Shown piece by piece: positions 2,080-48,580 of a DNA stretch of 64,000 nt. The DNA is from Isoetes taiwanensis. Lineage: Eukaryota; Streptophyta; Lycopodiopsida; Isoetales; Isoetaceae. The DNA lies in NCBI GenBank assembly GCA_021234155.1, contig JAJEKV010000002.1:38049329-38113328 (forward strand), given 5' to 3'. Position numbers and translations under genes: made by a program. The notes below the pieces were generated by a model, which saw only the letters and a list, made by a program, of their open reading frames with translations, was not told where the DNA came from and did not search any database. Each line of letters opens with the position of its first letter. Positions within the stretch are counted from its first letter, which is position 1.

Positions 2080-2082
2080 CTA
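2080..2082 (-). other. in-frame UAG between protease and RT, shared with copy B
   Basis: On the minus strand the codons read GCA TTG TAG CAA CGA CA. Copy B has CCC ATT TAG CAA CGA CA at the aligned site (stop at 50316-50318). In both copies the TAG is in frame with the upstream protease ORF. Other TAGs in copy B are not shared by copy A. Whether this is a readthrough signal or an inherited lesion is open. Confidence 0.7.
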
Positions 2083-3419
2083 CAATGCGGTCGCATCGGT
2101 TTGGTAGGAATGGTGAGTTCCCCAAGCTTTTGTTGATTCCCCCAAGATCTTTGTAACTCGGTAAAAATGTGTTTGAATTTTTTGAGCGGCAGCGGCCACG
2201 CTGTGCGATAAGGAGCCGGAAGATTTGCGGCAATCTTGGACAGGTTGATTATTTATAACGTCCACAATCTCGACTTGAGAGCGAATATGGGGTATTACTT
2301 CGGTATCACGGACAATGTTATGCGAGGAGGTTGGAGCATAACGGATGCGTGGCACTTTGCGTGGTGAAAAAGAGGTTGCTTTCAGGTTTCATCTAGCGAG
2401 AGGTTGCTTCATGGCGGCGTGTACATCAACGGGGAGTTGCGGGAGTGTCGACTATCGAAAAGTGATCAGCGCGTTGGATTCGATTGCAAGGGAGCGGTAG
2501 GGGTCAAGCAAAGGCAGCCTGACTGGTCACGATCAAGAGTCATTTCTCCCCAAGGATCGACATATTCGGTGTAGATGACGGAGGCATACTTCGCAGTGGA
2601 GCCCGGACTTGATAAATATTCTGAGCTTCTTGAAATCGGTGTCCGGAGAGAGGGGTTCCGCATTGTCAACAGAAATGATCCTGCCTGTTTGCAAGTCCAT
2701 GGTGGCATTGAGATGACCATCAGTGATGACTAATCGGTCCGCGGGCCCAAGAATGGATACTCTTTTTGCCCGGCGGAGAAAAGGTCTGCCTACCAGCATT
2801 TCATAGTCACCTGGATCTTCGCCAGCTTTCCAAACTCCAAATTCCATGGGAAAGCGGAGATCACCAATATTGATGTGAAGAATAGGTGTGACGCCTTGAG
2901 GTCTCGTGATATGGCCATTAGCCAATTTGATGTCATATGGGGCACGAAAAGAGTTGTGTGATGCCCATTTGTTTGGCGGAGTTTATCCGCGATGAGATTG
3001 AATTGCGCTACCTCCATCGATTTGAACATGGTTGACTTGGCGATTTCCCACCGTGGCATGGACCGTGGGTGTAGAGGTAGCCACAGGCCCCAACTAAAAC
3101 AAGGTTGGGAGTGGTAATCGTCCTTGAGAGCGGACACGAGTTTTAAAATGGTTGCCAAGCTTAAAGGAATTTTGATCTTGGCGAGCTCCTCTTGGAGTTC
3201 GAGAGGTACATGAGAAAAGGATCTGCTGGTTCCATCAAAAGGAGTGCGTGGCGAGGAAGCGAAGAACTTCTTTGAGTAAGTCAACCTCGGCGCAATATTG
3301 GGATATGTCCGAGAGCGTGGAGGTTGAGATGTTGAAGGGGTATCTTGTCTTTGTTGAGCTCTAGTGGTGGCATGAACATTTGCCAATGTGCGGCCCTCGG
3401 CAGCTTGCATGAGGTTCAA
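2083..3419 (-). pseudogene. protease region of gag-pol (copy A)
   Basis: Minus-strand ORF pieces (2080-2355, 2533-2925, 2790-3419) align to the copy B protein at 48879-50318. Recognisable blocks are NLMQAAEGRTLANVHATTRA, PLELQEELAKIKIPLSL, ANGHITRPQG and FGVWKAGEDPGDYEMLVGRP. In copy B this region holds the aspartic-protease motif DGGSAVN. Here the frame changes around 2800-2930 and around 2500. The pieces are non-functional but clearly homologous. Confidence 0.75.
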
Positions 3420-3590
3420 AAAATGCTTTGGCGAACTTTGGGCATGACATGTGGCATGAGCTTTTCCAAGTCAGGTGCAAAGTGAACCTTTTTTTTCGTC
3501 CTCATGAGGAATGGTGTCAATCAGCAAAGGCGGGGTTGCGTGCCCTTCCAATAATAGTCAAGGGACGTGATGCCTTGGTGCAGCGTGAAA

Positions 3591-5301
3591 CTAAACCAAC
3601 CCAATTTGTGGTATCTTTGGAGGATTAAGTGCCCGAAAAATTTCCTCTTGGGCTTGTTGATCCAAATTGAGGTTGATTTGTTGGAGCTGGTTGATAGCGT
3701 GATTCCGAGGCGCTCTTGGTGGCTTAAGAACTCGGTCGCGCCTTGTTTGCCGATAGCGAGCGAGTTGGTAAGCTTGTGAGGCGGACCGATGGTCCGATTT
3801 GTTACCAGAAGCATACTGAACTTGTGGAAGTTGAGGACACGCCGCGGGTGGTATGACCCCATTCTTGACAAAGGTGATAACACCGAGCTTTAGAAGGATC
3901 AAAAGGAGGGCGTTGGTTGGATCCCGTGGTTGGTCCCGCTCTTTATAGAGTTGCGTGGGCGCGCACAAGAGGTGGCTGGCGATAGTGCGATTATTCTTTG
4001 AGGTGTGGTTTGCACTTGATAAACCATTTTGTTGCGGGAACGGTGTGGGATGAGTGCGAGTGCACTCTTCCGGTAACATGATTGCACATGTTGCATCGCT
4101 TGTAATGAGGCGGGCCATTGGTGGAGTTGCACTCATTGGCCAAATGGCCTTGGTATTTGCAAATATGGCACCGATTTGACCGCTACTTGTGGATTAGCGT
4201 GTTGAGGCCGAATGCCGTTTGTGGAACCATGACAGTGGAATGAACGGGAGCTCTTGAAGAGCCATGCCTGAGGAAACATTGATCGGAGTGATTGACAAAG
4301 GTGATAGCTTTTGCTCCAAAGTTTTTGGACGCAGTATTCAGTCATGAGTCGAATAGCGGGAGGAAGTCCTTGGAGAAACCGGACCAAAATCCGCTCGTGT
4401 AGGGTACTCCTTGAGCTTACTTAGCGAGAATGTGAAGTCGATCCATAAAATCCCTGGCGGAACTCAGTGGGCTCTTATTGAAGTTCATTGAGTTGCTTGA
4501 GATGAAGTTGATCATCATCCGTGGTCCCGTAATGAGTAAAAGCAAAGGCGATTTCGGACCAGTCTTGTTTCCAATGGCTTTTGTTGGACATGAGCCATTG
4601 ATGAGGAGAGCCACGCGGGTGGTGGAAAAGATGTGGAATTTCGGTTGAGGTTCGCTGCGTGACCATTTAGGACAGCTAGAGCCTCAAATTCTTCCATGTG
4701 GGCCTGAGCACTTTGGTCTAACGGTTTGCCTTTCGTGTTGCCAAAGGTGGGATAAGTCGGTTTAGTCCGAAGGTAGATGTGAAAGTGTTGGGGCTGGACA
4801 GAACAAGGATAGTGAGGATATTGAGGTTGAGGTGGATGTGGCATTGTGCCCTGAAGGACCACGATGAAGGGTGATCTGCGTTGAGAAACCGGGTAGCTGG
4901 AGCATTGGTTTTGAGATCTGTAAGGTTGTAAAAGCAGAAGAGCAAATGGGAAAACGTGGGAAAGGATATTCCCGGTAGGCGCAAAGGAGACATGTGGATA
5001 GCCGTGCCCACCCGGGGAGAGATGATGGTTCGCGAAGGAAGAGGCGATGGCCCGAAGAATGATGGATGTAGGCATGTTCAGGGTGTGAAAGTACGGTTGA
5101 GAAGGTTGAGCCTCGAGCAAGGCTCCCCGAGAGTGATGAGGGGACTGAGGTTGTGAGCAATGTTTGCACGCTTTGGCGGGAACCGACGACAGACTGGACC
5201 CGAGGGGTGGGTGGCGCCGACCGAGCCCTAGACCGAAGATGGCCTCCCTCTATGTCATAAGCAGATCCATACATGTCGCTAACAAGCTTCCCGACAAACA
5301 T
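3591..5301 (-). pseudogene. gag polyprotein remnant (copy A)
   Basis: Minus-strand pieces 4762-5301, 4515-5120 and 3591-4136 align to the gag of copy B. They include the KPLDQSAQAHMEEFEALA block before the capsid-like domain and the Gln-rich linker with NKMVYQVQTTPQ after the zinc knuckles. Frameshifts interrupt every domain. Gag would form the particle core. This copy cannot do so. Confidence 0.7.
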
Positions 5302-5418
5302 GGCGCCTCCAAGCAGAGGCCGTCTGAGAAAGGAGTTCTTCCGGGCGTGAAATTACTTTACGCATGCATGCATGCGTAAGAAAGTAGGATAAAATCGCAC
5401 CGGCACGGGCGACAAAGT

Positions 5419-6002
5419 TGTTTGGGGTCTGGGTTCTGAACTCGAAGACAGCCCTCCGGAGGACCCGTGGATCTAACAGAGAGTCCGGGACTATGTCACG
5501 CGGGATTTGCAAGAAGAGAAGAAAAAGAAGGAAACAAACAAATGAGAGAAAGATGATAAGCTTCCTTGATATCAATGATGAAAATACATGAGCTCTACAA
5601 TAGAGAGAAAAACTGAAAGGAGACAAGACTCAAAACTCATCTTAAAAAACTTATGTGCTAACTCTACTCATATATATAGTACAATGGCCTTGGGCCCAAT
5701 ATAGACACTGACCGATCTCGGTGCCGACTCCTCGAAGAAGGCCCCGATTAGCGTGAATGTTGGCGGTGCCTCTTGAAGTGCCTAGAATCACTACGACGCC
5801 GACGCCAGGCAAGGACGGGCATGGGTCACTTGTCTCGAAGCGGCGCTTCTTGTTGATGTACCACAGGCTTTGATGCGTGGTCCGCCGCTTGGTCTTCATG
5901 AGCCTTGGATGTCCCGGCCCGTGGGCTGACTGAGGATCCTTGAGCTTGACCTGGTCTGTCGTATGCATGAATAGTCCTGTACCAGGAGGCACAGGACTAA
6001 CA
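5419..6002 (-). repeat. 5' LTR of Tat-like copy A (584 bp)
   Basis: On the minus strand it starts TGTTAGTCC and ends CCCCAAACA. It aligns along its length to the LTRs at 46391-46974 and 56886-57472. A TATATATA core with promoter-like context lies near 5670 on the minus strand. The bases following the LTR (ACTTTGTCGCCCGTGCCGG) resemble a degraded primer-binding site, perhaps for tRNA-Asp; that primer call is inference. Confidence 0.88.
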
Positions 6003-16510: not shown

Positions 16511-17791
16511 GTTGGTGGAGGAGGAGCTGTTGTTCCACCCTATTCCAGCCAGAAGGATGGAGAACCAAAGCGATAGTGGACCTAGCTATGATCCCGGTTA
16601 GTACGTAGATAGCTTGGATTCCTAGATAGTCGTAGGACTAACCTCTGTATGCTCAGAAGGTAGCTAGGATTAACCCTTGTATGAATAGATGTACGGTTAA
16701 TCTCTATTTTATGTTCTATTCGAAGCTATGGATGGGTGGATGTATAAGGATAGCTTTCTTTCTGTTCCTCCTGTGTTGTATGGGTAAAAGGGGGGTAGAG
16801 ACCTAAAGGCCATCTAGAAGTAGAGATGTTCCTAGATAGAACCCTTAAAACCCAAAGAAATGCTATGATGGTGCACAAGAGCCAACTGGGTTGTGGGATG
16901 CTATGATATGGTTCAAAAGTACCGTGATAACGAAAGTATGAGGGTGAATCGGGGTGGGGTCTTGCCTAAGCGTATGCTGACTCTGGGACTCCTATAGTGT
17001 GCTAGGCTTATAGCCGGTCACTGTGTGTGGGCCGGGTATGGGTCTGACACTCTCTGGGCCGGAGGGCGTGAGTCTATGTGGCCATCCTGGGCTCGAACGG
17101 GCTGGTGATCTAGCCTTTAGATTTAGGGGAGTAAGTCGGCACGGGATGCGGGGTCGCTGATACGACGTGTTCTCTAGCACACCTGGATCCATCATGCTCG
17201 GGAGGAGACGCCTCTTCGACCTGCCTCATCGGACCGGGAGATGTAACCCTAGTAGCCCCGGCCGATTCCTTGGGATTGCGTCTCCGGAGGGCTACAAGCA
17301 CGTCATAGCATGATTCAGCCTATCTGCAAAGTGTGCACAGGAGGGGCAGATGGAGTGGACTACCCTAGCCATTGTCTTATGCCAGCCAACACCATGTTAT
17401 ACCTCTGTCTGCTGTATCTTGAGGCCCTGACCGTCAGTCACCCCCATGGAGTCTGAGCCCGGGGTAGAGCCCTTAGTTATGGTGCATTTCCTTTGTTATG
17501 TTGGTATTCTATTGTTAGTCGTGTTGATGATAATGGGCCACCCTTTGTGGTGGTATGTTATTTATTAGTATTGTTGCTAGGTGCTAACATGTATGTACTC
17601 TTCCGCTATATAGGATTCCCATAGAAGGCGTGGGACAAATGACACCTCCAGCCTTCACCCTATTAACTTGGCCATCACAAGTGGTCCGGAGTCGACGGGA
17701 GGGCCTTTCCGTGGTGATGGATTCGCCATGGAAGGGGAATTTCCCGTATTTATACGATGAGAGCATCGTATGGATTCGGGGAGCGTCACAG

Positions 17792-19050: not shown

Positions 19051-19054
19051 GCCT
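19051..19054. repeat. left target-site duplication GCCT
   Basis: GCCT directly precedes the left terminus at 19055 and is repeated at 31094-31097 after the right terminus. The flanks ATTTGGC and GCCAAAT make the empty site an interrupted palindrome around GCCT. Confidence 0.7.
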
Positions 19055-19076
19055 GGGTAAAAGCACGCTGTGGTGT
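19055..19076 (+). repeat. left terminal inverted repeat
   Basis: Starts GGGTAAAAGCACGCTGTGG and ends TGT. The reverse complement of 31072-31093 matches at every position but the first. Confidence 0.9.
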
Positions 19077-19280
19077 ATCAAAAACGCGCATTTTGACGCC
19101 ACATTTTGGCACCACCTTTGTGGTAGGATCGGGTGGTGCATACCAAAGCGGAGATTGCGGGAGTGCGAATTAATGAGCGTTGGTTATTTTGAATTTTATG
19201 TCACGTCATTGTCCCTCATTTTGAATTAAGAAATAATCACATCTCTCCTTCTGTTTTTTTGCCGCTTCTTGCCGATTGAA

Positions 19281-22200
19281 GGTTGAAGAATCTGAGCAAT
19301 GAACAATACAAAGAGTTCATGCAAATTTACAAAAGAATTACAGGGAAGCCACATACATGGGGTGGAATGGCTCCTGGAACCTGGGCAGTGGCTTATTATC
19401 TGCATATAAAGGGGGAGGCTGTTAATTGGAAGAGCTTCTCAGATTATTATAAAACTCCCGATGAGAAAGCAGAGGCCAGTTTCTCTAGACCCAAGAGAAA
19501 GCATAGGCAAATCCAACCTGACTAGGAGGAAAATAGTAAAAGTGATAGGGACGATGAAGATGATAGGGAAAAAACCAAATCAGGTTCCTCTAGACCACAC
19601 ATTCAATCTGAACTCACAATCAAAATAGAAAAGCAGAGCAATGTTCTGAGACCAAAACATGCCATTGCAGGTATGTTCAATTATTAGTGGTGTTATAACA
19701 GAAAAAAATCTCAAGCTTGACCTAGATTGTTTCTATCAACACAGAAAAGGTAACATCAAATCCACTTCAAGAATCAGGTATGTCTACTACCATTTTGAAT
19801 CATGTCGGCTGTATTGTCATGTTGTGTCTCTATGATGCCATCTGTGGGGCATTTCGTGCAATGGATGCCAGAATGATAGATGAGTGGTCTGGTGAGTGGT
19901 GAGTTGTTGGCATTCCCACACCACACCCCACCATCTCCCACCACTACACTCAACCATCTCCCACCGCCACACTCCACCATGTCCGACACCACACCCCTCC
20001 ACCACACTCCACCACCACCACACCACACCACCAGACTCCACCATGTCCCACACCACAATCCACCACCACCACACCACCACCCCTCCACCACCACCACACC
20101 CCCCACCACCACACCCCTGCCACCACACTCCACCATCCCCACACCACACTCCACCACCACCACACATCCCACCACCACCACCACCAAAACACACCACCAC
20201 ATCCCACCACCACCATACCCCACCACCACCACACACTCCACCACCACCACCACACTTCACCACCCTGCACAATGTCCCACCACTCCTTGCTACCACCACA
20301 GCGTGTTGTGTGGTGTATACTGTGCAGCGTATGTTGTGTGGTGTGTGGTATGTGGTGGTGTGTAGAGACTACCTTGTGTTGTGTGGTGTGTGATTGTGGT
20401 TTTCCATCAGTACGTGGCTTACTATGTTAGGAGTCTGACATATACGTAGTGTTTTGTTTTGCAGACTATGGCAGACTTGTGAAGGAATGGTTGGCTGCAA
20501 CATCAGCTAGGTTTGATAGATGCAAGCAACGATTGCAAGCAAACGAGGATAGGAAAAATGATATCAAAAGAAAGATTGAGTTGATGGAGCATAAAGCATC
20601 AGAAATTAGAGCTGATTTGCATAGATGGCAATCAATCATGACAAAAAACCAAAGCGGTGAGGGTGTTCGGGTTTGCAAACGAACTAAAGGATGAAGAGCT
20701 AAATGGTACAAAGTTGCTGGGCTGAATCAATTAAATAAGGAACTAGCGGCCTGAAATTGAGCTAAAGGCATGTGAAGACTTACTGCTGGAGCTGCAACCT
20801 CGAATGCAAAGATTTGAGATTTTTTCTGAGCGTAGTTGTCATGACATGACACTCCTTTAGATCCTGCACTTCCAATGCTTCCTGAGGCAGAAGAAGAGGG
20901 TGATGAAGGTTGTCCATTTTGTGGACGTTGTCTAAAATGGGAGGGTAAAATGTTGCCAGTTGTGATAGCAGAATGCAGTCACCAGTATCACATTCCATGT
21001 CTATCACACCATTTGAGGTAAATATTATCATCTCTAACCCTCATCTAAAGACTCTATTGATTTTGAATTTGTTTTGCAGACACTCTAGATCCTGCTGCAG
21101 CCCCAGTTGTGCCCACGTTATGACTGAGACATGGCTTTTGGCTTTTGGTGTTCGAGTGGTACCACAAGAACCAATAGACACAAGTAAGTGCCTTAACTAA
21201 TTACTGATGTTGTCACAGGTCTACTGACTTAGTGTTTGCAAAATTGCAGAAATTTGAGACCAAGGATATCCAACAGCTTATCCACGCCGATCGAGTTATG
21301 AGGCTGCAAGATACCTCCCGTTGTACCTAGAATTCACCCCATTTGATACTTCTAAGTCAATCCCGACGGCGTGGCGGAGACTCCAAAACGAAATTTGGAT
21401 AGTGGCCCAATGCGATCATTATCAAGTAAGTATCGATGCCACATACATGATTTATTTTTTTGTATTTTTCTGTGGTCTTCCTCATTTCAATTATGTTACA
21501 AAGATAAATGCTACTGCAACTGGAAGCCATCACGAAGAGATTCCTAGTGCATCTGTTTTAGGGGGGAGGGGGGAATTAATTCCCTTGAGATTCATTTTGC
21601 ACGGGGTCCTTCACTAGAAAAATGTTTTGGTGCTGAACATGAGCCAAATGCGGATGCAGGTGATGATGTTGACAAAGAAACCCCGGATCCTGGATAAGAT
21701 GCAGACTGCTCAACGAGTCCAATACAACCTCAACCAAGAAAAGCCAAGAGGTTAACTGAAATTCTCCTTGTTCTGGATTTTAATAGGGTTTTAGGCAAGT
21801 TTTATGACTTGAAAGAGCATGATATGTCCAAATAATTTTGCTCCCGACAGGTTGGATTCCAATTTCCTTTTGGAGCAACTCAAACCATGGCTGGAGGGAC
21901 TTCTGGCTGCAGAAAGTGTGCCAGCTTATGTGAAGGAACATCAAATGTGGAACATGTGAGATTCTGAAGAGTCGCGCAACTGCATGAAAATGCTCGACAA
22001 GTATTTTCATAAATGAATCTTGTAAAACTCTTTGAAAGTCAATATAAGTAAAAAAAATTCTATGATATGTGTTGTAATTTTTCAATTTAAAATATTTGAA
22101 TGGATTGTGAGCAAATGTTCTCGTGTGTGTTTAGAACTAGAGATGATAGAGCTTCGGCAGTCCCTGTCTATCTAAAGCCAAATACACATTTGGAAGTGGT

Positions 22201-23069
22201 GCTGAGTGGAACTGAAACTGTCGTGATTAGCTCCACCGACATTAAAATTTTGGAAAATACGCAGTGGTTCAATGATCAATTGATCCTCCTCTTCTCAAGG
22301 TGATACTTTCATCTGATTTGTGATCATCAGGATTGTGCCATCATATGCACATGTTTGCAGATACATGGAATACTACTTGATGTTCCAAGGAATGAGCCAT
22401 CCCTTTCATTTCTTTGACCCTCTTTTTCACTCGACATTGTCCAAGGACACAAATAGTTACAAAACAATAAGGAAACATGTGAATCTGGATAAGTGCGAGT
22501 ACATGTTTTTGCCTGCTTGTGATGGACATCACTGGACCTGTTTTCTGATTGTAAGCCACGCGTGTCTCGCACAGAGATATAAACCAGGGATATATCACTT
22601 TGATAGCTCGGGCTTGCATGGCAGAAGCAGACATATTGAGAGGTTAGTGCTTGCTCATTGCATTTTGCTGTTGTGGCACAATGACAACAAACTTTGAATG
22701 CAGGTTCCTGGAATTGCTTGGACGCGATAATTTCAGCTTTACAACCTCAGATGTTGTGAAAATTTCCAGAACGCCTCTTCAAACCGATGGTCATTCATGT
22801 GGCCCTGCCATATGTTCGTTTATGCACAAATTTGTGAGGGGGTACTTGAAAGAAGTGAATATATTGTTGCATGATCTAGTAAGTCAACTCAAATGCAGCA
22901 GACAAACCAAACTCTGTTATTGACAAAGTGTGGTTAACTGCAGGTTGTGGACATTTCAGACCAGGATCTAGTAGATGTTAGAGTGTTCATGCTTGAAGTT
23001 TTAAGATTAGAAGCAACAAAAGCTGGAACTGAGAGGAACATATGTATTGGGAAGTATATAGGTGCATGA
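19281..23069 (+). pseudogene. multi-exon C48 (Ulp1-like) cysteine protease with RING-like finger
   Basis: Transposon-borne protein. Ulp1 proteases cleave SUMO or ubiquitin-like tags; the role in transposons is unknown. Exons with GT-AG borders: to 19670, 19745-19777, 20465-21017, 21080-21183, 21250-21425, about 21505-21700, 21851-21955, 22135-22299, 22361-22642, 22704-22878, 22944-23069 (stop TGA). The middle has a coiled coil (20465-20840) and a RING-like finger (CPFC ... ECSHQYHIPC, then CCSPSC in the next exon). The protease starts at SSTDIKILENTQWFNDQLI. The triad is His CAC 22530-22532 (DGHHWTCF), Asp GAT 22602-22604 (YHFDSSG) and Cys TGT 22798-22800 (LQTDGHSCGPA) with the oxyanion Gln. 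Lesions: a TAG after 19522 and a frameshift near 20690. No ATG is seen in the first exon shown, so an upstream exon is likely. Confidence 0.85.
19910..20390. repeat. CCACCA/CACACC-rich array in an intron, with strand switch
   Basis: About 380 bp of CCA/CAC-rich sequence, switching to TGTGTGGTG-rich sequence after 20305. At the switch (20295-20305) is ACCACAGCGTG, which is part of the transposon terminus in inverted orientation. It lies in the intron before 20465. Confidence 0.85.
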
Positions 23070-23273
23070 GTCACCTCGTACTTTAAATCACTGTATATCT
23101 TTCTTATGTACATAATTGTTATTGTAACCTCGATTCATTTGAATGAAAATTCATATTCAATTCATCTCACAAACAAAGGAATCAAGCGTTCAGAAGAATT
23201 CAAATCTTCAAAAGAAATCAAGACAAACTCATTTTCACAGCTGAAGCACAAAACTTCACATGAGTTCTGAAAA
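23070..23273. other. intergenic gap between two convergent transposon genes
   Basis: About 200 bp between the stop of the Ulp1 gene and the stop of the minus-strand transposase-like gene. Presumably it holds both polyadenylation regions. AATGAAAATTCATATTCAAT lies on the plus strand near 23140. Confidence 0.5.
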
Positions 23274-23548
23274 CTACAGAATGGTTTTACATTTCATCAT
23301 CATCAGAAAGTCGTGTAAATTCTGTAAAATTTTCTCCTCATCTAAAGGATCCAGCCTATATACAGTCCTGTTTTGACGTTTAGTTGGTGGCATGTGAAGT
23401 CTGATTGCACAGATCTGTGTTGTGAATACTATGCCTAAGGCGTCTTTACCGCAAAGATCATAGCTGATCCAAAATTCAGAAAAATTCAAAATTCAGCAAC
23501 GACAGCAAAATTATCACCAACTCTAAGTGCCTCTGCTAACATCGTGGG

Positions 23549-23555
23549 ATTGGAG
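23549..23555. repeat. TSD of the LINE at 23556 (ATTGGAG, 3' side)
   Basis: ATTGGAG here recurs at 25706-25712 at the other end of the LINE. Reading the minus-strand host gene across one copy gives an uninterrupted frame (PSSN followed by PTMLAEALRVGDNF). Confidence 0.75.
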
Positions 23556-24708
23556 AAGAATGGAATAGAATAGAATAGAATAGGGTTTTTAGCGTCCACG
23601 GAGACCAATTGGCCTATGGGACCCAAACAAAAAAGAGAGCAGCAAACATATTCTTGACGAGTTAAAAACCCCGCCCGAAGGGTTTTTTGAGGGAAAAACC
23701 TTAGCGATAATAAGCTTCTTGGCTTTTAACAACATTGACAATTGCATAGGGCGAGTTCAATACCGTCCCGTAGAGGACACAAATAGCGAGTCCGTGCATC
23801 CATAACCTCCTCGGAGGTATGACCCCAACAAACCCACCAAGGGTTTTCGAGGGAAAACCTTTAGCAGTAGTCAATAAATTGATGCAACGGGACCGCGGGC
23901 ACTAAATGTCGAACATATCGCTCTCGGATATGGGCAAATCTTTGGGCAGGTCCGGAGGGCATGACATTCATCCTCAATCCTGACATTCATCCCTAATCGC
24001 TACGTGGCAACACCGGCAAAGCCTTTGCTCGTGCTTCACGAGCCCAACGCCTGTTTCAATCGCGGAGGCGATGTGCCCGACCTCTGTGAGCCTAGGATTG
24101 ACTTGTCTGGCGATAGTGTGCCGCCAACATCGTCGAGCCTCGCATCCCACAGCTTGTGAAGGAAAGTAGCATCAAGGTACGGTTTAAGTGCCTCGCGATC
24201 TTTCTTTGTCCCCGACTGGGCACATCTGTTTGCCCGCACACCCCAAATAAGGAGAACCACCGAGCTGCTTGTCTTTCCAGCCAGGATTTCAGGCGTTAGG
24301 GGACCCATTGCCGTGGCCAAAGCAAGGCGGGCAGGCGTGTATCAGCCATAGCGACCACCTTTTGGAAGTAAACGATATGGCGTTCCAATGCAGCCCCGTT
24401 GAAGGGGTAAAAGCCCGTCTCACGGAGTAGGATCTGGTGCGGAACCGTGGACTTCACCCCGGGGCCCGTGCCAAGAAGGCCTTCACCTGCTTTCGAGGTC
24501 ATTCCGGTGTTGAGGGATATCACCGACCCCACACTTCTGCCCCATACAAAAGGGCGGCTCAACCAAGGCCCTAATAAATGTGGATCGGTGACCCCGTGCA
24601 TACAACTCTGCCTTTGTGGTGTTGTTACGCATGGCATATAGTGCTTTCCAACCCGCAGCGACCCGCAAACTTTGATAAGTCGCATCTCAATGGGTGGTAG
24701 TTGAGAAC

Positions 24709-25320
24709 TCAATCCCCAAGTACTTGTAGGTCGGAGCCACCTCTACCTCTTGCCCCCGGTAAGTGAATGCGGGAAGCCTTGGTCGACGGGGATGATGCAA
24801 CTAGCAACACCCTAGTTTTGGCCAAGTTAACTTCGCATGCCGGTGAATTGGCAAAAAGTGTCAAGAGCATCCAGTGGCGTTGCATGTCCTCTAGAGTATA
24901 GGCCATGAGGTTGACATCGTCGACATATATATGAGTTGCGGATTGTGTGATGCATGATATGTGCGCCCGCACCCCATGCTCGAGAGCCAATCTTCCAACC
25001 GATCAATGTACGAGGCCAAAGAGTGTGGGGGGAGGGGGCAACCACGAACGCCTCCAATGCTACTTGGTCACCGGTTGTCTTTGCTGATGTGATACGGCCC
25101 GAGCATGCCTCGTTACAACCTATATCGCGCATTACGCAAGTCCGGGGGTCCCGGTTGCCGCAATCGTCCCATAGCTTATTGCGGGTAATCGTGGTCGAAT
25201 GCCTTTGCAAAATCCACGAAACAACGATGCGAGGTTCTGTCGCGGCGATTCCTGCTATCTTCAATCAATGTCTTGAGTGAAGATATGATCAATGGTGGAA
25301 TATGCGGGCGAAAAGCCCAC
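24709..25320 (-). pseudogene. LINE RT palm fragments (FAKAFD and YVDD)
   Basis: SHRCFVDFAKAFD marks the first catalytic Asp block and YVDDVNLMA the YxDD block, followed by CEVNLAKTRVLL. The frames differ, so the enzyme is dead. The same blocks occur in the related fragments at 45.8 kb and 61.3-61.7 kb. Confidence 0.75.
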
Positions 25321-25369
25321 GTGTAAGAGCTCGCACCTCGTTTCCTCTCGCCCATATTGTCACCCCTGC

Positions 25370-25705
25370 TCAAGGATGCCACCAACGGTTTGCAAAGAGA
25401 GAGCTGACCATAATAGTACGGTAGTTGGCCGGACATTGAGGGTCCCCTGCTTTGTATATGGGCACTACTCTACTAGTGGTCCATTGCGTAGGGAAGCCTT
25501 CTCGCAATGCTTTATTGAACAATGCCGTGATAACAGGCACCAGAGGAGGCCCAGCCCATTTCAGAAGCTCTGCCTGCATGCCATCTAAATCTGCTGCCTT
25601 CCCATTAGCTAGGCGCTGTAGGCCCATGATGACATCCCCCTCTGTGATAACCAGAGCCATGAACAAGGACCTGCTGAATTTACGGTCCTCAATGTCAGCA
25701 TGCAC
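25370..25705 (-). pseudogene. LINE RT fingers region fragment
   Basis: The longest open piece here continues from host-transposon coding sequence into LINE coding sequence without a stop, so the long ORF 25370-26053 is a chimera created by insertion. The LINE part starts after PSSN and runs HADIEDRKFSRSLFMALVI into the RT block with GKAADLDG and PANYRTI. Confidence 0.75.
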
Positions 25706-26465
25706 ATTGGAGGATGGTACAATAACTTGAAGTTTCCAATCATCAACATAGTGCTTGTTCACACCACTGTCCCACATGCCATCCAAGCAGTAGCTGCAGA
25801 AGCATGAAAGTTCCCTCGTGTGCAACTGCAATGGAGATTCAGGATTGAATGCATGTACACAATGGATCTGCCTAGTATCCAAAATCCTTTCTGCACCCCA
25901 TGCTTTCTTTCTATCTATATCCTCCACCTTGACTTCCCAAAAGAACCTTTTTATATTCTTCCTCTTACTGGTTTCAGATGTGTTCATCCACTCGGATGTT
26001 CCACAAGTAAACATCTCTTCGGCAACTTCTACCACTTCATGAGCATTACCCAATTTTATCTTTGCTTTTATTTTATTGCAGTTGTCTTAACCATCTCTTC
26101 AACTCAGCAGCTTTGCCATCGTGTTCACCTTTCCCATGGTTAGAACAAAAAAAAATCCACATCATATAGACATCAGTGTCGTTTGTGTACCTAGCCACAA
26201 AGTAAAATGGTCTAGAAGCCTTGCATCGAGATGCTGCACCATCTGAAAACACGTAATGTCTCTTTGGCACCCTTCCTTTCTGCTCCAGATATTTGTGGTG
26301 CTTCATGAAACAGTGTTGCACGAACAAAGTATCGTGTTCCCTATCATCTGATACATAGTAATGTGTTTCCTTGATAATCTCATCTGCCACTGAGTCGTAC
26401 TGATATGTTATTTGAATCAAAATGGTAGTCTGGTTATTGACCCAGCGCATCGACTGCACCTCCTC

Positions 26466-26935
26466 TATAACGTTCCTAACCGACATGCCCTTAACCAACT
26501 GGGCAAAACCATCTAGACGTTTATGAGTAGTCGCTTCTACCCATTTATGCCGGTGTCTCGGGAACGCCCCACAGGCACATTCAAGGTTTGAATACTCGAG
26601 CAGTTTACCATGGGCCCGTTACAGTCTCTACCACTAGAACTATGCTCGTCCTCGAGCATCCAAGGCTATACCATGTCTATGTCATAACATGTCACAATGA
26701 TTACCAAGTCTTTGTAAATTACCCATGCATATAGGCACCCATGGAGACTCGAACTCGAGACCTGCTCTGATACCAACTGTAACGTTCCTAACCGACATGC
26801 CCTTAATCAACTGGGCAAAACCGTCTAGACGTTTATGAGTAGTCGCTTCTACCCATTTATGCCGGTGTCTCGGGAACGCCCCACAGGCACATTCAAGGTT
26901 TGAATACTCGAGCAGTTTACCATGGGCCCGTTACA
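26466..26935 (-). mobile_element. TRIM (miniature LTR retrotransposon), 470 bp, TSD TCCTC
   Basis: Two near-identical LTRs (26466-26624, 26778-26935) enclose a 153-bp interior. Ends are TGTAACG ... CGTTACA. On the minus strand the interior starts with TTGGTATCAGAGC, a tRNA-iMet primer-binding site. TCCTC at 26461-26465 and 26936-26940 is the duplication. There is no coding capacity. Removing it with one TCCTC restores the frame of the transposase-like gene (KEQEEVQSMRWVNNQTT). Confidence 0.95.
26765..26777 (-). promoter_or_regulatory. PBS of the TRIM (tRNA-iMet)
   Basis: On the minus strand TTGGTATCAGAGC lies directly after the LTR end. Confidence 0.9.
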
Positions 26936-27714
26936 TCCTCTTGTTCCTTGAATGTATAGTTCTCTACAAAATCCACTACCGAAAGACATGCATCTGCTGG
27001 GAGATTCTCCAGAAGCTCCTTAAATTGTTTTGCCTGCCATTGGTACCTAAAATTATGCAGTGGAAAGATTTTTAGACGCTCTTTCAGTTTATCCAGAAGC
27101 TCCTTGGGTTCTGTCTCATTGTACTGATGAGTCAGTCTCCTATCAGAACTCGAGACGTTGTCTTTTTCATAGTCAATGTACTCCCATTTCACTTTCCTAT
27201 TACTGCCACTTCCTTCCATGGGACAGGTCTGAAACTTCTTGATTCCACACAGCTCACAATTTCCAAGGATGCATGCCTTCTTGTGAAACTCATCTAATTC
27301 ACTCTTTGGACACAATATAGATCTCCACAAGCTTCCTCAGACTTGCAATTTTATCTTTGTGTGCCCCGCATTGACCAAGTTCATGTGATCTACAAACATC
27401 GCGGTGCAAGTGCAATTCTTCTGGATGTTTGGTTCTCATCCCATTGAGTCCATCCACTAGCATTTGCATCCTCACGTCTTTGAATGCAACAAAGAACTAT
27501 TGAAGTCCTTCAATTTCACAACAAACCAGGGGTTTTAGCTTCTCAAAAGCTCGAGATCGAATCTTAATTTACGGATGTTGGTCCGTAAAACTTGAACAAT
27601 AGCATCTGCATGAAATGAACACTAAAGTGTTAGGATGTGTATACCACACCAAACCATGCACCATACCATGCCCCACACTCATCATATTCACCAGAACGAG
27701 CACCTTAGTGCTGT

Positions 27715-28440
27715 GTACATTACCACACACCACACCACACCCCACCACATACCACACCATTCACCACACACCATACACCATACACCAAATGGTGGAGTGT
27801 GGAGTGGTGGTGGAGTGTGGTGGTGGGGGGGGTGGTGGTGGTGGTGGTGGTGGTGGGGTGGTGGTGGGGGGTGGTGGTGGTGTAGTGGTGTGTGTAGTGG
27901 TGTGTGGTGGTATGATGTGGCGTGGTGGGTGTGGTGGTGGTGGTGGTGGTGGTGGTGTGTGGTGTGGTGTGGTGTGGTGTGGTGGTGGTGGGTGTGGTGG
28001 GGGTGTAGTGGTGGTGGTGTGGTGTGGCGTTGTGGATTGTGGTCTGATGTGATGTGGTGGAGTGTGGTGGTGGTGGTGGAGGGGTGTGGTACATGGTTGA
28101 GTGTGGTGGTGGTGGAGTGTGGTGGTGGTGGAGTGTGGTGGAGGGGTGTGGTGTGGGATATGGTGGAGTGTGGTGGAGGGGTGTGGTGTGGGATACGGTA
28201 GAGTGTGGTGGAGTGTGGTGGTAATGGACAATGTGGTGCATGTGGTAGTAATATTGGTGGTAGTCTATGGTGGTGGGATAGATGATGGGGTGTGGTGGGG
28301 TGAGGGGGGAGAATAAATAAAATTGAATCCACACATATCATACATTAACATGCACACACCCACATGACACCATGGACATAACGCACACCACACCACACCA
28401 CACCACACCACACCATCATGACACCACACATCACATCACA
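27715..28440. repeat. GTGG-rich low-complexity array with strand switches
   Basis: ACC-rich on the plus strand at 27720-27786, GGT/GTGG-rich at 27790-28310, and CACACC-rich again at 28385-28440. It is a counterpart of the array at 19.9-20.4 kb near the other end of the transposon. The long Trp/Gly/Val and His/Thr/Pro ORFs across it are artefacts. Confidence 0.92.
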
Positions 28441-28633
28441 TCACTTTTATCCTATTTAAAATCGACATAAAAATCACTTAGCCTGCTCTCATAAACATTT
28501 CTGAAATTCATACACCCTGATAATAATTACATTCCTCTTCTAATCATTAGAAAAGGATCTGGGTCCTAAATCCTGTTCTTGCGTCTGATTTTTGGCGTTT
28601 CATTCTCAATTCGAACAAGTTCATTCCGGCAAC

Positions 28634-29794
28634 ATGGTAGGAGGGATGTTCAGAGATCACTACGGCTATTATAGGGTGAGTGAGGAGGGCATTCGGCACT
28701 TGTTAAATAGGGCTCGTGACCAATCTCTGAAGGTGGTAATGCGTAAATCCACCTTCTTTGCTGATTTTGAATCCAACCTAAAGGCATACAACAGACTGGA
28801 TGTTGGGTCTTCAATGGCTATGCTTGGGGTCAGGGAAAAAATTACTAAAGTCATATTTTAGATTAGCTAGAACAACTTTGGCTAATTTAACCCAAAATAC
28901 ATAGGAAAACTTTCGAATGTTTGGCTAAAGTTGAATAATTTTCCTTTACTACTTTTGAATGTTTGGCTATTTTTTGTTTGAACCTTTATATAAACTTTAG
29001 CCAAACATTTATGCTATGCCAAACTTTTTATTGTACGAACATATTAATAAAAGAAATCTACTAGTTGAAGAACAAAAAACTGTCCATCTAATATAGTCTA
29101 TTCCATAATCTCATATTTTACATTAGCTATTAAAAAGTATGGCTAATCTATCCCTAAATGCATAGGAAAACTTTCGAACGTTTGGCTAAAGTGGAAGAAT
29201 TTTTCCTCTCCTTCTTTCTTATGTTTGGCTAAACCTTAGTGTAAGGGAGGTCAACTTCGAAAATATTTGGCGATTTTTTTCTTTTTTCCAAAAATTTCCT
29301 CCTTTATAGTTTAGCCGTACTTTTTCCAAAAATGTCCAAAAAATCGCCATTTGGCTAATATTAGCCGCTATTTTTTTTCCCTGCTTGGGGTCAGATTGAC
29401 AGGAAGTGAGCTCTTAGACAAGGTCCATGAGCTTATGTTACATGTTGCTGCAAGGGTGGTTTATTTATTCTCTGTCACTTGTCCGCTCTGCAACAGCGGG
29501 AATTACTGGCAGGGTTGCGTTCTTACCACCAGGGATGTAGGAAGCACTGGCAAACCTCATCCTGTTAAATTCTGGGATGACTGTAGAAAGCTTAGATGCT
29601 TTAATGCAGAAAACAATAATTTTGGATGCACCAGTTCTCGAGCCAGTCATACCAGCATTTCCTGTTGCTTAGGAAATGCATGTAAATTTAGTTCTCGGGT
29701 ACAGAGCTTTCAATGGAAAGCCAAATTTTGTAAAGCCAAATTTTGTAAGATCCTTTTTTTAATATATTATACTTTCCAACAGAGCTGTGCTTGA
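28634..29794 (+). pseudogene. small Cys-containing protein of the transposon, split by a MITE
   Basis: Plus-strand ORF starting at ATG 28634 (MVGGMFRDHYGYYRVSEEG), interrupted at MAMLGV by the MITE at 28833-29381 and resuming RLTGSELLDKVHELM. Element plus one TSD is 561 bp, a multiple of 3, so removal restores the frame exactly. The second part has CPLCNSGNYWQGC and FWDDCRKLRC, possible zinc ligands. I do not recognise the family. The last third (after GCTSS) may be intron. It lies between two transposase exons on the opposite strand. Confidence 0.6.
28833..29381. mobile_element. 549-bp MITE, Mutator-like, 12-bp TSD
   Basis: Ends GGGAAAAAATTA and, inverted, GGGAAAAAAAATA. TGCTTGGGGTCA occurs at 28821-28832 and 29382-29393. 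A duplication of about 9-12 bp and G-run termini fit Mutator-like non-autonomous elements. The interior has two direct copies of an 85-bp segment with GCATAGGAAAACTTTCGAA or close variants (28852, 29111). Confidence 0.8.
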
Positions 29795-31071
29795 ACCTGA
29801 CAAAAAATTGTCTTTATTCAACAAAAATTTGTATCTTAGGATCAGTTAGTTATCATTCTCAATTTATATTTTTAGACTGTACATACACCCAGTAAAGGAG
29901 TACTCAATTCTGTCATGTTCTAATATTTCAAACATTAAATATTGCATTTCAGACTAGAGTCAACTATACACAATTCACATGATGCATACAGTACACCACA
30001 ATCACTGTACAACACAATAACCACCACATGCACCACCACACTAAGCATCATAACTAAGAAAACATGAATAACAGAAATAAACTAACCTGTGATTCCTCCA
30101 GATAGTGGGCAACATGTTCTTCTCTTACATCTCTCTCCAATCTTCTAGTTCTAACATCCTTTGTGTTAGGAGACACTTTGGAGTTCTCAATCCAAAAATT
30201 TTGAATCTTTTCTATATGTTCATCTGAAATTGCATCGAATCTTTTAGCCCTCTTGTAAGAAACCCATTTCCCACCATTGTAATCGATCTCTTCCCTCTTT
30301 TTTCTTTGCCTTTTGCAGGTTTCTTGGGTGAACACCTAATACCTTTCCAAGATCTCGCTGGCTAATTTTGTCACTTGTTTCAGAATCGCACATACGCAGT
30401 ACGTATTATTGTAAGGCAGCTATTCTTGGTCGCTAGGCGCATTGCTGGTAGAGAGTTTGATACCGCATGGAGTCCCAAAGGCTCCTTATAACGATGCTCT
30501 TGGCTTCCAAATCCTTTAATTCTTCACCTATGAATTTTTCCAATGTTTTATCCCTCAAAAACTCAAGTAAAATTTCTTTCTTCGTGCTATCCTCCATTCT
30601 TTTGGTCTGTTTATGGAAAGACGTTAGCAAATTAAGGACAATACGGTTCTTGCTTGCACTTCTTGATGAACCGGATCCTTCCGCCAATTCTCAAGTAAGC
30701 TCCAATTTTTCTTCTCTTCTTTTCCTCGGGCGCTTTTTCTTCAACATTTCTTGTTCCTTGGTTCTTCTTCATTTTCTCCCCGTCTCGAAATGCTGGTTTG
30801 TGGACAGATTACCTCATTGACATCCATATCCACAATGGATTGGAGCTTGCAGCAGGGAGGGAGCCAAAGAACAGGACGTAGGCAAAGAACAGGAAGGGGC
30901 CAAAGAATAGGAATTTGAATTTTAGTTTTTAAAATTAGAATTTCCCCCACAAATTGGGACTCTATTCTTAAATAACGGCAGCTGAGCGGTGCCATAATTA
31001 TACTTTCATACCATAAAAGTGGTGGATGCAACGCCACATTTTGGGGGGACATGGGGGACAGCCGAATTGGA

Positions 31072-31093
31072 ACACCACAGCGTGCTTTTACCT
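31072..31093 (-). repeat. right terminal inverted repeat
   Basis: The reverse complement reads AGGTAAAAGCACGCTGTGG then TGT. It differs from the left end only in the first base. GCCT follows at 31094-31097. Confidence 0.9.
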
Positions 31094-31097
31094 GCCT

Positions 31098-34000: not shown

Positions 34001-34989
34001 TTCCGTATTCATATGGAATGTAAAGTTCTATTATACGTCCTATCTTTTTCTAGTTGTGTTTTACCATTAAATGGTCCTTGTGTGCATATACCAACGCGGA
34101 GCTACTCCTCGGGATGCATACGCGATACCGAGTCCAGTGCACATTCTCCTTGGTAAGATGTTCACTGGGCACCTACCTTGCTCATACTCCAGACTTTGGT
34201 CTATTTAAAGTGTCCCTCCAAATTCTCTAAATTTGAAACGTTGTTTACAACAACTCTCAAGCTCCTCTTGTCTCACACTTGTCATCTGGGTACACGACTT
34301 AACATACCTTGCACCTTTTAGATGGTTGCGCCTGCTCCTACCAATTGTCGTCTTCTCTTGACCTTGTGTGGAAACTACATTCCACACTATTGTCCAGTCG
34401 TATGTCGATGCTCCCAGCAGACATACGATGTGTCCATTTCCTTAATTTATACCATGCATAATGGTCATGCATCTGACTAACGTCATTAAGCGTATCCACG
34501 TGGCTACGTGGTCTTCTTACTTGTCTATAACCTTATGTCTTTATTTCACGCCTCAGGAACATCAATCTCCTTACCAAACGCAACGTAGGCGTAATTTTAT
34601 AATCCGTAGTTTATGGATCTGCGTTGTTATACGCCATTCATCCTTTAGCTTATATAGCATAAGCATTATATACCTGCACCATCATGCTCGAAACCTACAC
34701 TTCTTAAGTAATGTCCCTTTCATAAGCTAAGTACATATAATCCAGTTTCCACATTAGTATAGCACCTCTCTAACGTGGTCTATGGTAGATAATCATGTAT
34801 CACTTATCCCTCACCTCTATGGTGCGAAATCCACTCTCCTTCTACGTTGAATGGCAATATGTATGCTGCATGATAAATCAATCCTCGTAATTATTAAGTC
34901 CACTGCTTCAATGGCATAACAAACATCGTCATACCAGTTCTCTCGACTATCGACCCCAAATCAAGATACCTTACCACTCCTTATTCCCC
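31098..34989 (+). other. AT/TC-rich sequence between the transposon and T LTR copy 2; no gene recognised
   Basis: About 3.9 kb, presumably the rest of a T element interior. ORFs are short and resemble no gag or pol. Weak internal similarity (TATTTCCAACCATT and TTTTAGTGCC versus AATTAGTGCC near 31220 and 32590) suggests old internal repeats. Confidence 0.45.
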
Positions 34990-35935
34990 AGATAGAACCC
35001 TTAAAACCCAGTAAATGCGGGCCTGTACACAAGAGCCAACCTGGCTGTGGATGTTATGATGTCGTTCAGCACTAGATAACGAGTATGAGGGTGAATCGGG
35101 GGTGCGGTCTTGCCTAGTCCGGCTACAGGACTCTTATAGTGTGCTAGGCTTATAGCCGGTCACTGTGTGTGGGCCGGGTATGGGTCTGACACTCTCTGGG
35201 CCGGAGGGCGTGAGTCTATGTGGCCGTCCTGGGCTCGAACGGGCTGGTGATCTAGCCTTTAGATTTAGGGGAGTAAGTCGGGTACGGATGCGGGGGTCGC
35301 TGATGCGGCACGTGTTCTCTAGCACACCCAGGGATCCGTCATGCTCGGGGAGGAGACGCCTCTCTGACCTGCCTCATCGGGCCGGGGAGATGTAACCCCG
35401 AGTAGTCCCGAAGGGTGATTCCTTGGGATTGCGTCTCCAGAGGGGTACAAGCACGTCATAGCATGATTCAGCCTATTTGCAAAGTGTGCACAGCATGGGC
35501 AGATGGAGTGGACTACCCTAGCCATTGTCTTATGCCAGCCAACGCCATGTTATACCTCTGTCTGCTGTATCTTGAGGCCCTGACCGTCAGTCGCTCCCAT
35601 GGAGTCTGAGCCCGGGGTAGAGCCCTTAGTTATGGTGCATTTCCTTTGTTATGTTAGTATTCTATTGTTAGTCGTGTTGATGATGATGGGCCACCCTTCG
35701 TGGTGGTATTTTATTTATTAGTATTGTTGCTAGGTGCTAACATGTATGTACGCTTCCGCTATATAGGATTCCCATAGAAGGCGTGGGACGAATGACACCT
35801 CCGCGTCCTTCACCCCACACTTGGCAATCACAAGTGGTCCGAAGCATTAACGGAGGGCCTTCCGCGGGTGATGGATTCGCCATGGGGGGGAATCGTATTT
35901 ATACTGATGGGAGCATCGTATGGATTCGAGAACAG
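34990..35935 (+). repeat. LTR of family T, copy 2 (5'-truncated)
   Basis: Nearly colinear with copy 1 from 16835 to about 17780: ATAGAACCCTTAAAACCCA through GAGCATCGTATGGATTCG. It lacks the palindromic U3 part. No PBS follows; block S follows directly. Confidence 0.85.
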
Positions 35936-36656: not shown

Positions 36657-36678
36657 ATATGGGCAAAAGTATGCTGGT

Positions 36679-36720
36679 GGGGTGCAAAAGCACGCGTCCG
36701 GACGCATGCTTTTAGCACCC
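36679..36720. repeat. subterminal hairpin in the 0.9-kb element
   Basis: GGGGTGCAAAAGCACGCGTC and its near reverse complement meet at TCCGGA. The arms differ by one indel and one base. Confidence 0.85.
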
Positions 36721-36982
36721 CTGCTTCCTGCTTTTTTTTTTTGGTGCTGGTGGGTTCGTTTTTTTACACCCTTCATTTGTTAAGAGGATTCTTCAGACAA
36801 GAATCGTTCCACATTGCTCGAATTTTCCATCAGATTAGCATCGATTTCATTAGATTGGAGTCTGACTAGTGCGCAGAAATCCAAATTGGCATGTGAATCT
36901 CCAATTAGTTGCTCAATCCATCATATCTTTTCATAAAACTTATCCACCAAGGTAGGATTGTCATTTCGACCATATTCAGCCT

Positions 36983-37477
36983 AAAAGCCCCATCTAATTT
37001 TGCTTAAATTGGGCTGACTTAAGAGATTTCTCATTGTTTTACAAAAACACATTGCAAGAATGGTTTTTCTTTAATTTTCACTCAATATCCCAAACTAGGT
37101 TCAAATTTTTGCACGTGGGATATGGTAGATTATAAAAATTTGAAAAGCCCCAAATGATTTAGCTTAATTTGGGCTGAATTAAAAATTCTTCAACTGCACC
37201 AAAAACCGCTGCTGAAAATGGTTTTTCTCTAATTGCTCACACAATATCCCAAATTAGGTTTTGAAATTTTGCACGTAGGATATGGGTGCATGGCCGATTA
37301 TGAAAATCTGAAAAGCCCCATCTGATTTAGCTTAATTTGGGCTGAATTAAGAAATTTTGTTCTGTTTTATCAAAATTGTTGCAGAAATGGGTTTTCTCTA
37401 ATTGCTCACTCAATATCCCAAATTAGGCCCTGAAATTTTGCATGTATGATCGAATTGCATGGCCGATTATGAAAAAC
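36983..37477. repeat. three tandem 160-170-bp repeats
   Basis: Units start AAAAGCCCCA at 36983, 37143 and 37311. Each contains CAATATCCCAAA(C/T)TAGG and GAAATTTTGCA or close variants. They make up most of the 0.9-kb element. Confidence 0.88.
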
Positions 37478-37799
37478 AAAAAAAAAGTGCTGGAAAGTGC
37501 TGGAATGTGCTGGGTGCTGGGTGCTGCATCGCGTTTATTTGTACCCCACCAGCATACTTTTGCCCATATGGTCTAAAATGAATGATGTCAATAACTACTG
37601 TTAGGTGGGAATAAGCAAGACCCTATTTTCTCACAGAAATTGTGAAATAAGAAAAGGCACTTGAATCTTAGCGAGATAATATTTGACCCATGATTCATCT
37701 AGATTTCTATTAAAAACATTCATGTCTGGAAAACATGCGCCATTGTAATTAATCTTGCAACTCTATTATTTGCCCGACCTTCTGAATTATGCTTAGAAA

Positions 37800-46390: not shown

Positions 46391-46974
46391 TGTTAGTCCT
46401 GTGCCTCCTGGTACAGGACTATTCATGCATACGACGGACCAAGTCAAGTCCAAAAGTCCACAAATGTGTCGCCCGTCCGTCAAAGGCTTCCGCAAAGACC
46501 AAGCGGCCAGACCACGCAGACAAAGACCACCACGGGCGTCAAGAGGCGCCCAAGCCGACAAGTGATGACCGTCACCACCTGTCGGCTGTCCGGCGTGATT
46601 ATAGGCTTTAAAGAGGCACCGCCAACATTCCTGCAAATCAGGCCTTCTTCAAGGGGTCGGCACCGAGAATAGTCAGAGAGTCTATTTTGGGCCAAAGGCC
46701 ATTGTACTATATATATGAGCAGATCTAGCACATGATTTTTTAGATGAGTTTTGAGTCTTGCTTGTCTCTTAGTCTTCTCTCGATTAAGAGCTCATGTATG
46801 TTCATCATTGATATCAAGGAAGCTATCATTTTCATCACAACTTTTGTTCTTTTTCCTCTTTTGTTCCTTTCTTGCAAATCCCGGGGACATAGTTCCCCGG
46901 ATTCTCCCGTTAGATCCAAAGGTCCTCCGCAGGGGGCTGCCTCGGCAGAGTTCCTGTTCTGACCCCCAAAAACA
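46391..46974 (+). repeat. 5' LTR of copy B
   Basis: TGTTAGTCC ... CCCAAAAACA. The TATA box TATATATAT lies at 46708-46716 after ATTGTAC. It aligns with 56886-57472 and 5419-6002. Confidence 0.93.
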
Positions 46975-47099
46975 CCGCCGCCTGCTATCGATGCGATTTT
47001 TCCTCATCATGTCGACTCGGTGGATTCATTCCCGAAGAACTTCTTGCCAAACGGCTTCGCCTGGAGCCGCCATCAAAGACGCCAGGTCTGTCCGGGGAC

Positions 47100-48200: not shown

Positions 48201-48580
48201 CGTGCTCACATCTAGTGTACCATCTGTAAATATCAAGGTCATTTGGCAAATGAATGCAATTCCTCGAATGGCCCTCCTCATTGTAAACGCTGCAATATGT
48301 GCAATCATGCCACGGAAGAATGCACGCGATCTCATCCTACCCCTTTTCGCAACAAAATGGTCTTTCAAGTTCAGACCACCCCTCAGCAACAGCAGTCGTA
48401 TCAGCCCCAGCAATATCCCATTCAACAATAGCAGCAGTATCCTCAACAGCAACCCTCTCAGCAACCACGGGCTCCAGGCAATTGTCCTCCATTTGATCCT
48501 TCAAAAGCCCAATGTTATCATTGTCACGCATGGGGTCACACCACCACGGAGTGTCCTCAACTGCCGCAAGTTCAAGTCCA
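48200..48580 (+). pseudogene. gag nucleocapsid: three CCHC zinc knuckles (copy B)
   Basis: CTICKYQGHLANEC, CKRCNMCNHATEEC and CYHCHAWGHTTTEC each fit CX2CX4HX4C. They share one frame, separated by a Gln-rich linker with an in-frame TAG at 48429-48431 among CAA/CAG codons. Zinc knuckles bind the genomic RNA. Three in a row is more than most plant gypsy gags show. Confidence 0.85.

Follow-up and report, generated by a model that had tools for sequence, protein, structure and literature searches.

A DNA transposon with a convergent RING-like/NIF/Ulp1 gene in the lycophyte Isoetes taiwanensis, probably a divergent plant lineage of Sola

What kind of mobile element occupies positions 19055 to 31093 of the 64,000-nucleotide stretch of Isoetes taiwanensis DNA analyzed here (the window), and does it belong to a superfamily that already has a name? 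A sequence-only reading had proposed a DNA transposon with these boundaries, a 4-bp duplication and two convergent genes, and had held that it matched no superfamily. The boundaries hold: the left terminal inverted repeat GGGTAAAAGCACGCTGTGGTGT (19055-19076, plus strand) shares 21 of 22 bases with the inverted copy ending at 31093 (31072-31093, minus strand), the mismatch being the first base, and the unstranded target-site duplication GCCT lies directly outside both ends (19051-19054 and 31094-31097). This copy of the transposon is broken, differing from complete-length copies by three inserts and three deletions.

In the plant's own genome, the terminus pattern GGGYAAAAGYAYGCTGNNGTG, which also lets in a few ends of related families, gave 423 exact matches (213+210) versus none for the reversed control, and the terminus is therefore not a product of chance. 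The same inward sequence follows the terminus in all 20 left-end loci, one of which reads GGATAAAA, and all 14 printed flanking bases differ. An exact 4-bp duplication was found in 18 of 20 chosen end pairs and none in the other two; duplications of 5 bp or longer were seen in 0/20, and mismatched partners gave 6/380. The duplicated 4-mers vary among copies, TTAA making up 2 of the 18 exact duplications, and the three paralogous empty sites examined (L093-L095) all carry a single GCCT. The DNA transposon and its 4-bp duplication are thus confirmed; the empty sites have one target copy, as foreseen, and 2/20 end pairs depart from the duplication rule. That just one copy of the 19055/31093 terminus pair is visible in the window might have suggested a chance inverted repeat or an assembly artefact, but the genome copies, with 423 matches against a control of zero, 18/20 paired duplications and the empty sites, rule this out, leaving it a negligible probability.

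Both ends were present in three copies among 10 genome stretches, with the duplications CCAT, GATT and AAAT. Complete-length copies of 9402, 9646 and 10698 bp (9.4-10.7 kb) carry two convergent genes with intron-split frames, the arrangement originally described for the window. Frame breaks occur in copies c977, c1054 and c1100, none of which is fully open, and within the family none of six protein segments has variable sites biased toward a codon position, which fits dead copies and lends no support to the explanation favored here. Three nested insertions were identified in the window. The first, on the minus strand at 23562-25659, is LINE-like, carries reverse-transcriptase-like ORFs (recognized by eye) and is absent from c977, c1054 and c1100. 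The second is a TRIM-like LTR element on the minus strand at 26466-26931, with two repeats 97-98% alike, the target-site duplication TCCTC and a primer site that is presumably tRNA-Met-like. The third, unstranded and 548 bp long (28834-29381), is flanked by ~13-bp repeats TGCTTGGGGTCAG and splits a third ORF (28634-29669, plus strand; ~162 amino acids in c977) that has no match in Pfam and looks to sit in an intron of the transposase gene. The sequence-only reading is corrected here: the third ORF common to the copies is the one at this position, and the reverse-transcriptase-like ORFs at 23.6-25.7 kb belong to the nested LINE-like insert.

The window also holds a related nonautonomous element of 905 bp (36661-37565, unstranded) with the terminal inverted repeat GGGCAAAAGTATGCTGGTGGGGT and the duplication ATAT; all 10 chosen end pairs of its terminus have a 4-bp duplication. 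Its autonomous partner was not found, since the 3.5 kb read from a 7-kb element with GGGC ends (C65) revealed no related protein.

The minus-strand gene begins with an exon encoding an HTH-like N-terminal region, judged by eye (30084-30597), and continues through an exon with a Cys cluster and a first Asp segment (VVDF.ENY; 26932-27589), an exon with the second and third Asp segments (SDGAAS and HGKGEHDG; 25655-26465) and a C-terminal part (23316-23560); an unstranded, GTG-rich low-complexity stretch at 27720-28320 would lie in an intron. The three Asp segments are kept across three transposase lineages, one of them just 37-45% identical to the other two, and those Glu that lie close to the last Asp are not common to all three. 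From this conservation we infer a DDD (RNase H-like) transposase. A single-sequence structure model of the window's partial core (26076-26465) had a mean pLDDT of 42.6 and left the RNase H fold unconfirmed. Between the window family and the relative c1078, whose Asp segments fall in two frames, the codon-position differences are 232/197/358, a third-position excess (p=1e-12). A clear match of this protein to an established superfamily, which would have refuted the sequence-only reading, did not appear: several diverged transposases returned only weak, unrelated matches below cut-off in Pfam and NCBIfam, the best PHROGs match was a family of unknown function (E=0.0027, on a piece of the L019 transposase), PDB gave no match by sequence or by profile, and no relative was confirmed among viral contigs, contigs of prokaryote genomes or plasmids. 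To our knowledge, no Pfam model exists for Sola, and a missing Pfam match thus says little about membership in that superfamily. A first look at the genome gave thousands of transposase candidates.

The convergent, plus-strand gene comprises an N-terminal exon region (19301-19678; located by tblastn with the c1054 protein, 94%), a coiled-coil-like part with a RING-like zinc cluster (20464-21182), remnants of an FCP1/NIF phosphatase-like domain (21752-21944; ~370 bp missing relative to complete-length copies) and Ulp1/SENP-like cysteine protease exons (22154-23066). The earlier description of a Ulp1/RING protein was right about Ulp1: one window exon alone matched Peptidase_C48 below the 20.7-bit cut-off (E=0.0021, 18.3 bits), and the spliced exons aligned with SENP1 (E=2.8e-6), including its His, Asp, Gln and Cys, which we take to be the catalytic positions. 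The RING-like segment is weak against Pfam RING models (E 0.04 at best, below cut-off), and the FCP1/NIF domain had been missed altogether. The latter is recognized in c1054 (NIF, PF03031, E=3.5e-16); its best PDB match, UBLCP1, is weak (E=0.0042). In both families it reads DFNG, with Asn where the phosphatase motif presumably has its second Asp, a replacement that makes phosphatase activity doubtful. NIF is a standing partner of the transposase, because it shows a third-position excess between the diverged families (89/61/119 between the window family and c1078, p=8e-5) and because a convergent orientation marks 38 of the 41 NIF-transposase pairs no more than 15 kb apart, with 0.4 pairs expected by chance. 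Among the matches listed, no NIF lay beside transposases of the L019/L084 type (0.4 pairs expected by chance). The c1078 relative showed no Ulp1. Within a limited literature search, the accessory gene appears to be new.

The available excerpts of the literature point to Sola as the closest known kind. Sola elements are described as having a DDD transposase, 4-bp duplications and highly variable ends with terminal inverted repeats of 11-1124 bp, and are known from moss (PMC10741241, in the part available). Membership in Sola is assigned by transposase similarity, through PSI-BLAST convergence on Sola1, Sola2 or Sola3 (PMC4455052, likewise in part). The element resembles Sola in its putative DDD transposase, here deduced from conservation, its 4-bp duplication (18/20 and 10/10 end pairs, and the empty sites) and its 22-bp inverted repeat, which is within the Sola range; its copies are just above the usual size (mostly 2-9 kb, some >15 kb). 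Like Sola, it is found in a nonflowering plant; its second, convergent gene, which combines RING-like, NIF and Ulp1 parts, finds no mention in the excerpt on Sola (PMC10741241). The statement that the element matches no superfamily therefore did not stand, as this description fits on the points tested. The element is probably a divergent plant lineage of Sola, and on balance we favor a cut-and-paste DNA transposon of that lineage with a DDD transposase and a convergent RING-like/NIF/Ulp1 gene.

A separate, undescribed DDD cut-and-paste superfamily, in which the 4-bp duplication would match that of Sola through convergence or a very deep common descent, is unlikely but deserves some weight. The failure of several diverged transposases to fall into a recognized family (Pfam, NCBIfam, PHROGs, PDB), the lack of relatives in the viral, prokaryote and plasmid sequences searched, the GGGYAAAAG ends and the unusual accessory gene would all suit it, but the Sola features open to testing are present here (PMC10741241, excerpt), a missing Pfam match says little, and Sola ends are themselves described there as very variable. 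Equally tentative is its fuller form, a distinct superfamily of DDD cut-and-paste elements, much expanded in this lycophyte, with a convergent RING-like/NIF/Ulp1 toolkit acting on protein marks, its NIF kept by selection across diverged families.

Improbable, by a wide step further, is membership in another named superfamily (CMC/Chapaev, Academ, Ginger, KDZ/Zisupton or MULE) with an accessory Ulp1. The MULE transposase is recognized by Pfam, which also holds a model for the transposase of KDZ (Kyakuja-Dileera-Zisupton), a group of large elements with a target duplication of another length than 4 bp, and for which the sequence-only reading had cited Ulp1. Pfam searches at E up to 5 returned no transposase or integrase match, the KDZ domain and the Gypsy-like integrase typical of Ginger1 included. 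In favor of such membership, Ulp1 occurs in Ginger1 and is reported from plant Mutator-like elements, and the duplications of Ginger1 and of most Ginger2 are 4 bp long (PMC2836005, in the part available). Ginger1, as characterized there, combines TGTNR ends with CCGG/CCGT targets and encodes a Gypsy-type integrase that carries a C-terminal Ulp1 or OTU in some members and a PHD finger in one; it is like our element in its inverted repeats and 4-bp duplication, but is ruled out by the GGGTAAAAGC ends, which begin GGG, and by the varied 4-mer targets; a further difference is that Ulp1 here lies in its own convergent gene. Differences in ends or duplication length likewise exclude CACTA (CACTA/CACTG termini, 3 bp), hAT (8 bp), MULE (7-12 bp), PIF/Harbinger (3 bp) and Tc1/Mariner (2 bp), as given in the available text of PMC10741241, and Kolobok, described as TTAA specific in that of PMC9587614 (TTAA in 2/18 here).

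The putative minus-strand DDD transposase would pair the GGGTAAAAGC ends and join them to the target with a 4-bp stagger. The product of the second, convergent gene, which joins a RING-like part to an FCP1/NIF phosphatase-like one and a Ulp1 SUMO protease, would most likely edit the ubiquitin, SUMO or phosphate marks carried by the transposase or by host proteins of silencing or repair. A lycophyte gains an abundant transposon lineage with exact bounds, and with it numerous and varied DDD transposases of a group without a known Pfam model. Through the element, DNA transposition becomes connected with a phosphatase-like domain, with a RING-like segment and with a SUMO protease, and a question becomes testable: may a transposon carry enzymes of its own to alter the modification of its transposase or of host silencing by SUMO, ubiquitin or phosphate?

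The 12-kb element at 19055-31093 (12,039 bp) is real and exactly bounded, its two ends agreeing at 21 of 22 bases and GCCT flanking it on each side. When the genome (1,658,258,908 bases in 1110 contigs) was searched with the left 206 bp, the best 40 of 506 candidates, which were scored, showed 94-97% identity, the window itself aside; with the right 206 bp, the best 40 of 500 showed 94-98%. The terminus began at the identical base in all 20 left-end loci, and the 14 flanking bases printed differed in all of them. The terminus pattern, which also lets in a few related-family ends, occurred 213 times on one strand and 210 times on the other (reversed control, 0). Twenty plus/minus end pairs at ~9-27 kb spacing were picked among 100 places listed; 18 had an exact 4-bp duplication (L047 and L075 being the two without) and none a 5-bp one, while mismatched partners agreed over 4 bp by chance in 6 of 380 cases. 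The flanks of L067 and L069 are identical, so that these are probably a single duplicated locus counted twice. Copies with both ends were present in three of ten 20-kb stretches (10698, 9402, and 9646 bp, with target duplications CCAT, GATT, and AAAT, respectively); fully open frames were found in none of the three.

The flanks of c1054, a complete-length copy, when joined via one GATT, matched across the junction in at least eight places at 81-87% identity. The element was absent from all four of the eight that were read, the single GATT being kept at L090 and L092 and the spot altered at L089 and L091. The other 19 junctions of the same query gave no continuous match among the matches listed. 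The host repeat of the window copy carried a single GCCT in all three copies read (L093-L095), and the window flank is without ~300 bp immediately left of the insertion site. Overall, the element is a bounded mobile unit with varied 4-bp duplications and empty sites, its ends and duplication length being those proposed by the sequence-only reading.

Against the three complete-length copies, the window copy has three insertions and three deletions. The former are a LINE-like insertion (23562-25659); a TRIM-like LTR element within a transposase exon (26466-26931; two ~160-bp repeats, 97-98% alike; target duplication TCCTC), with a primer site that is presumably tRNA-Met-like; and a 548-bp insert (28834-29381) with GGGAAAAAA and TTTTTTCCC close to its ends and flanking repeats of ~13 bp. 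The deletions removed ~150-190 bp near 19280, ~370 bp at 21818, inside the FCP1/NIF phosphatase-like (NIF) domain, and ~120-130 bp near 23468. Low-complexity CCACCA/TGGTGG stretches at 19930-20300 and 27720-28320, inside the inferred introns of the two genes, are also present in all three complete-length copies. Around the element, a ~950-bp direct repeat, 89% alike, lies at 16831-17778 and 34987-35928, and a long repeat that is probably an LTR retrotransposon has two inverted copies ~75-78% alike (1162-6002 and 46391-51249), with another piece near 56912-57472.

The minus-strand transposase gene comprises a first exon that looks HTH-like by eye, a long inferred intron containing GTG repeats and an ORF on the opposite strand, a Cys cluster, and a core carrying the motifs VVDF(A/S)ENY, SDG(A/C)A(S/A)QFK, and HGKGx(H/Y)DG. 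The predicted catalytic triad is best read as DDD because the Asp residues are kept in three lineages (in c1078, a diverged relative, across a frame break) and the Glu residues near the last Asp are not common to them. By BLAST, window-family and c1078 transposases share 65% identity over 89 residues, and those of the L084/L086 group are 37-45% identical to either. With the L019-type core, genome searches gave 4932 first-look candidates, of which 150 were scored, with open frames reaching 600 aa; with the c1078-type piece they gave 9033, of which 149 were scored (reaching 674 aa), first-look candidates not being confirmed matches. At L019/L081 (C919:23609356), a window-family left end copy lies inside the transposase frame of an L084-type relative, and at L023 and L024 (C1078) a window-family left end (95%) is duplicated at 17-kb spacing, with the c1078 relative between.

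The accessory parts begin with an N-terminal region and a coiled-coil-like part; next come a RING-like Cys cluster, to which Pfam models match weakly, then FCP1/NIF (PF03031, E=3.5e-16), and lastly Ulp1. Judging from their order and strand, they would make up a single gene. Against PDB, the best match to NIF was a weak one, UBLCP1 (E=0.0042), and the Ulp1 part matched SENP1 (E=2.8e-6). Active enzymes have a second Asp in the NIF motif; the copies read DFNGVL, and because Asn takes the place of this Asp, phosphatase activity is uncertain. The c1078 relative has NIF and RING-like parts in matching layout, convergent with the transposase; a search for Ulp1 there saw none.

Differences between c1078 and the window family by codon position were 232/197/358 for the transposase (p=1e-12) and 89/61/119 for NIF (p=8e-5), a third-position excess which indicates that selection has acted on both; the compared c1078 codons include three stops in the transposase and one in NIF. 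The RING part, with only 17 comparable codons, gave no result. Pairing 148 of 150 NIF entries (two second pieces of one match removed) with 149 transposase entries yielded, among the matches listed, 41 pairs within 15 kb against 0.4 expected. Thirty-eight were convergent, and every transposase in the other three is also paired with a convergent NIF. Among the convergent pairs, NIF identity spans 38-100%, so several families have this layout. When listings were compared by eye, at least 16 NIF matches were followed on their own strand, ~0.6-0.8 kb downstream, by a Ulp1 match.

A 905-bp non-autonomous element (36661-37565) with GGGCAAAAGTATGCTGG ends, a related terminus, is flanked by ATAT duplications. 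The 17-base GGGCAAAAGTATGCTGG end had 366 + 385 = 751 exact matches in the genome (control, 0). Ten pairs taken among those listed all had an exact 4-bp duplication and none a 5-bp one; 2 of 90 mismatched partners agreed. Pair lengths among the matches listed were mostly ~190-250 bp or ~930 bp, with one of 7 kb, and no autonomous partner was found among the genome GGGCAAAAGTATGCTGG pairs.

The sequence-only reading had matched the element to no superfamily, and a new one is possible: Pfam and NCBIfam returned for the transposase only weak unrelated matches below cut-off and no recognised family, PDB gave no match, and the best PHROGs match was to a family without assigned function (E=0.0027), with the L019 piece, which extends into an inserted element. 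In the literature, Sola1-3 are treated as subgroups of one superfamily, superfamilies being merged when iterated protein searches converge (PMC4455052), and are among 17 superfamilies having their own profiles (PMC10294476). Sola is described there as having a DDD transposase, a 4-bp target duplication, terminal inverted repeats of 11-1124 bp, and a length of 2-9 kb, some exceeding 15 kb, and as found in moss and apparently uncommon in flowering plants (PMC10741241). Compared with this description, the element most likely represents a divergent lineage of Sola type whose accessory gene is new. Bao et al. reportedly described Sola likewise in 2009. Ulp1 by itself is not new, since Ginger1 and Mutator elements carry it (PMC2836005). 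A limited literature search found no paper whose title concerns a DNA transposon with a phosphatase, and on the literature side the novelty of the accessory gene is tentative. In this element, a DDD transposase would act at both ends with a staggered cut, and the accessory protein, as its domain combination suggests, might edit ubiquitin, SUMO, and phosphate marks, conceivably those of the transposase itself or of host proteins for silencing or repair.
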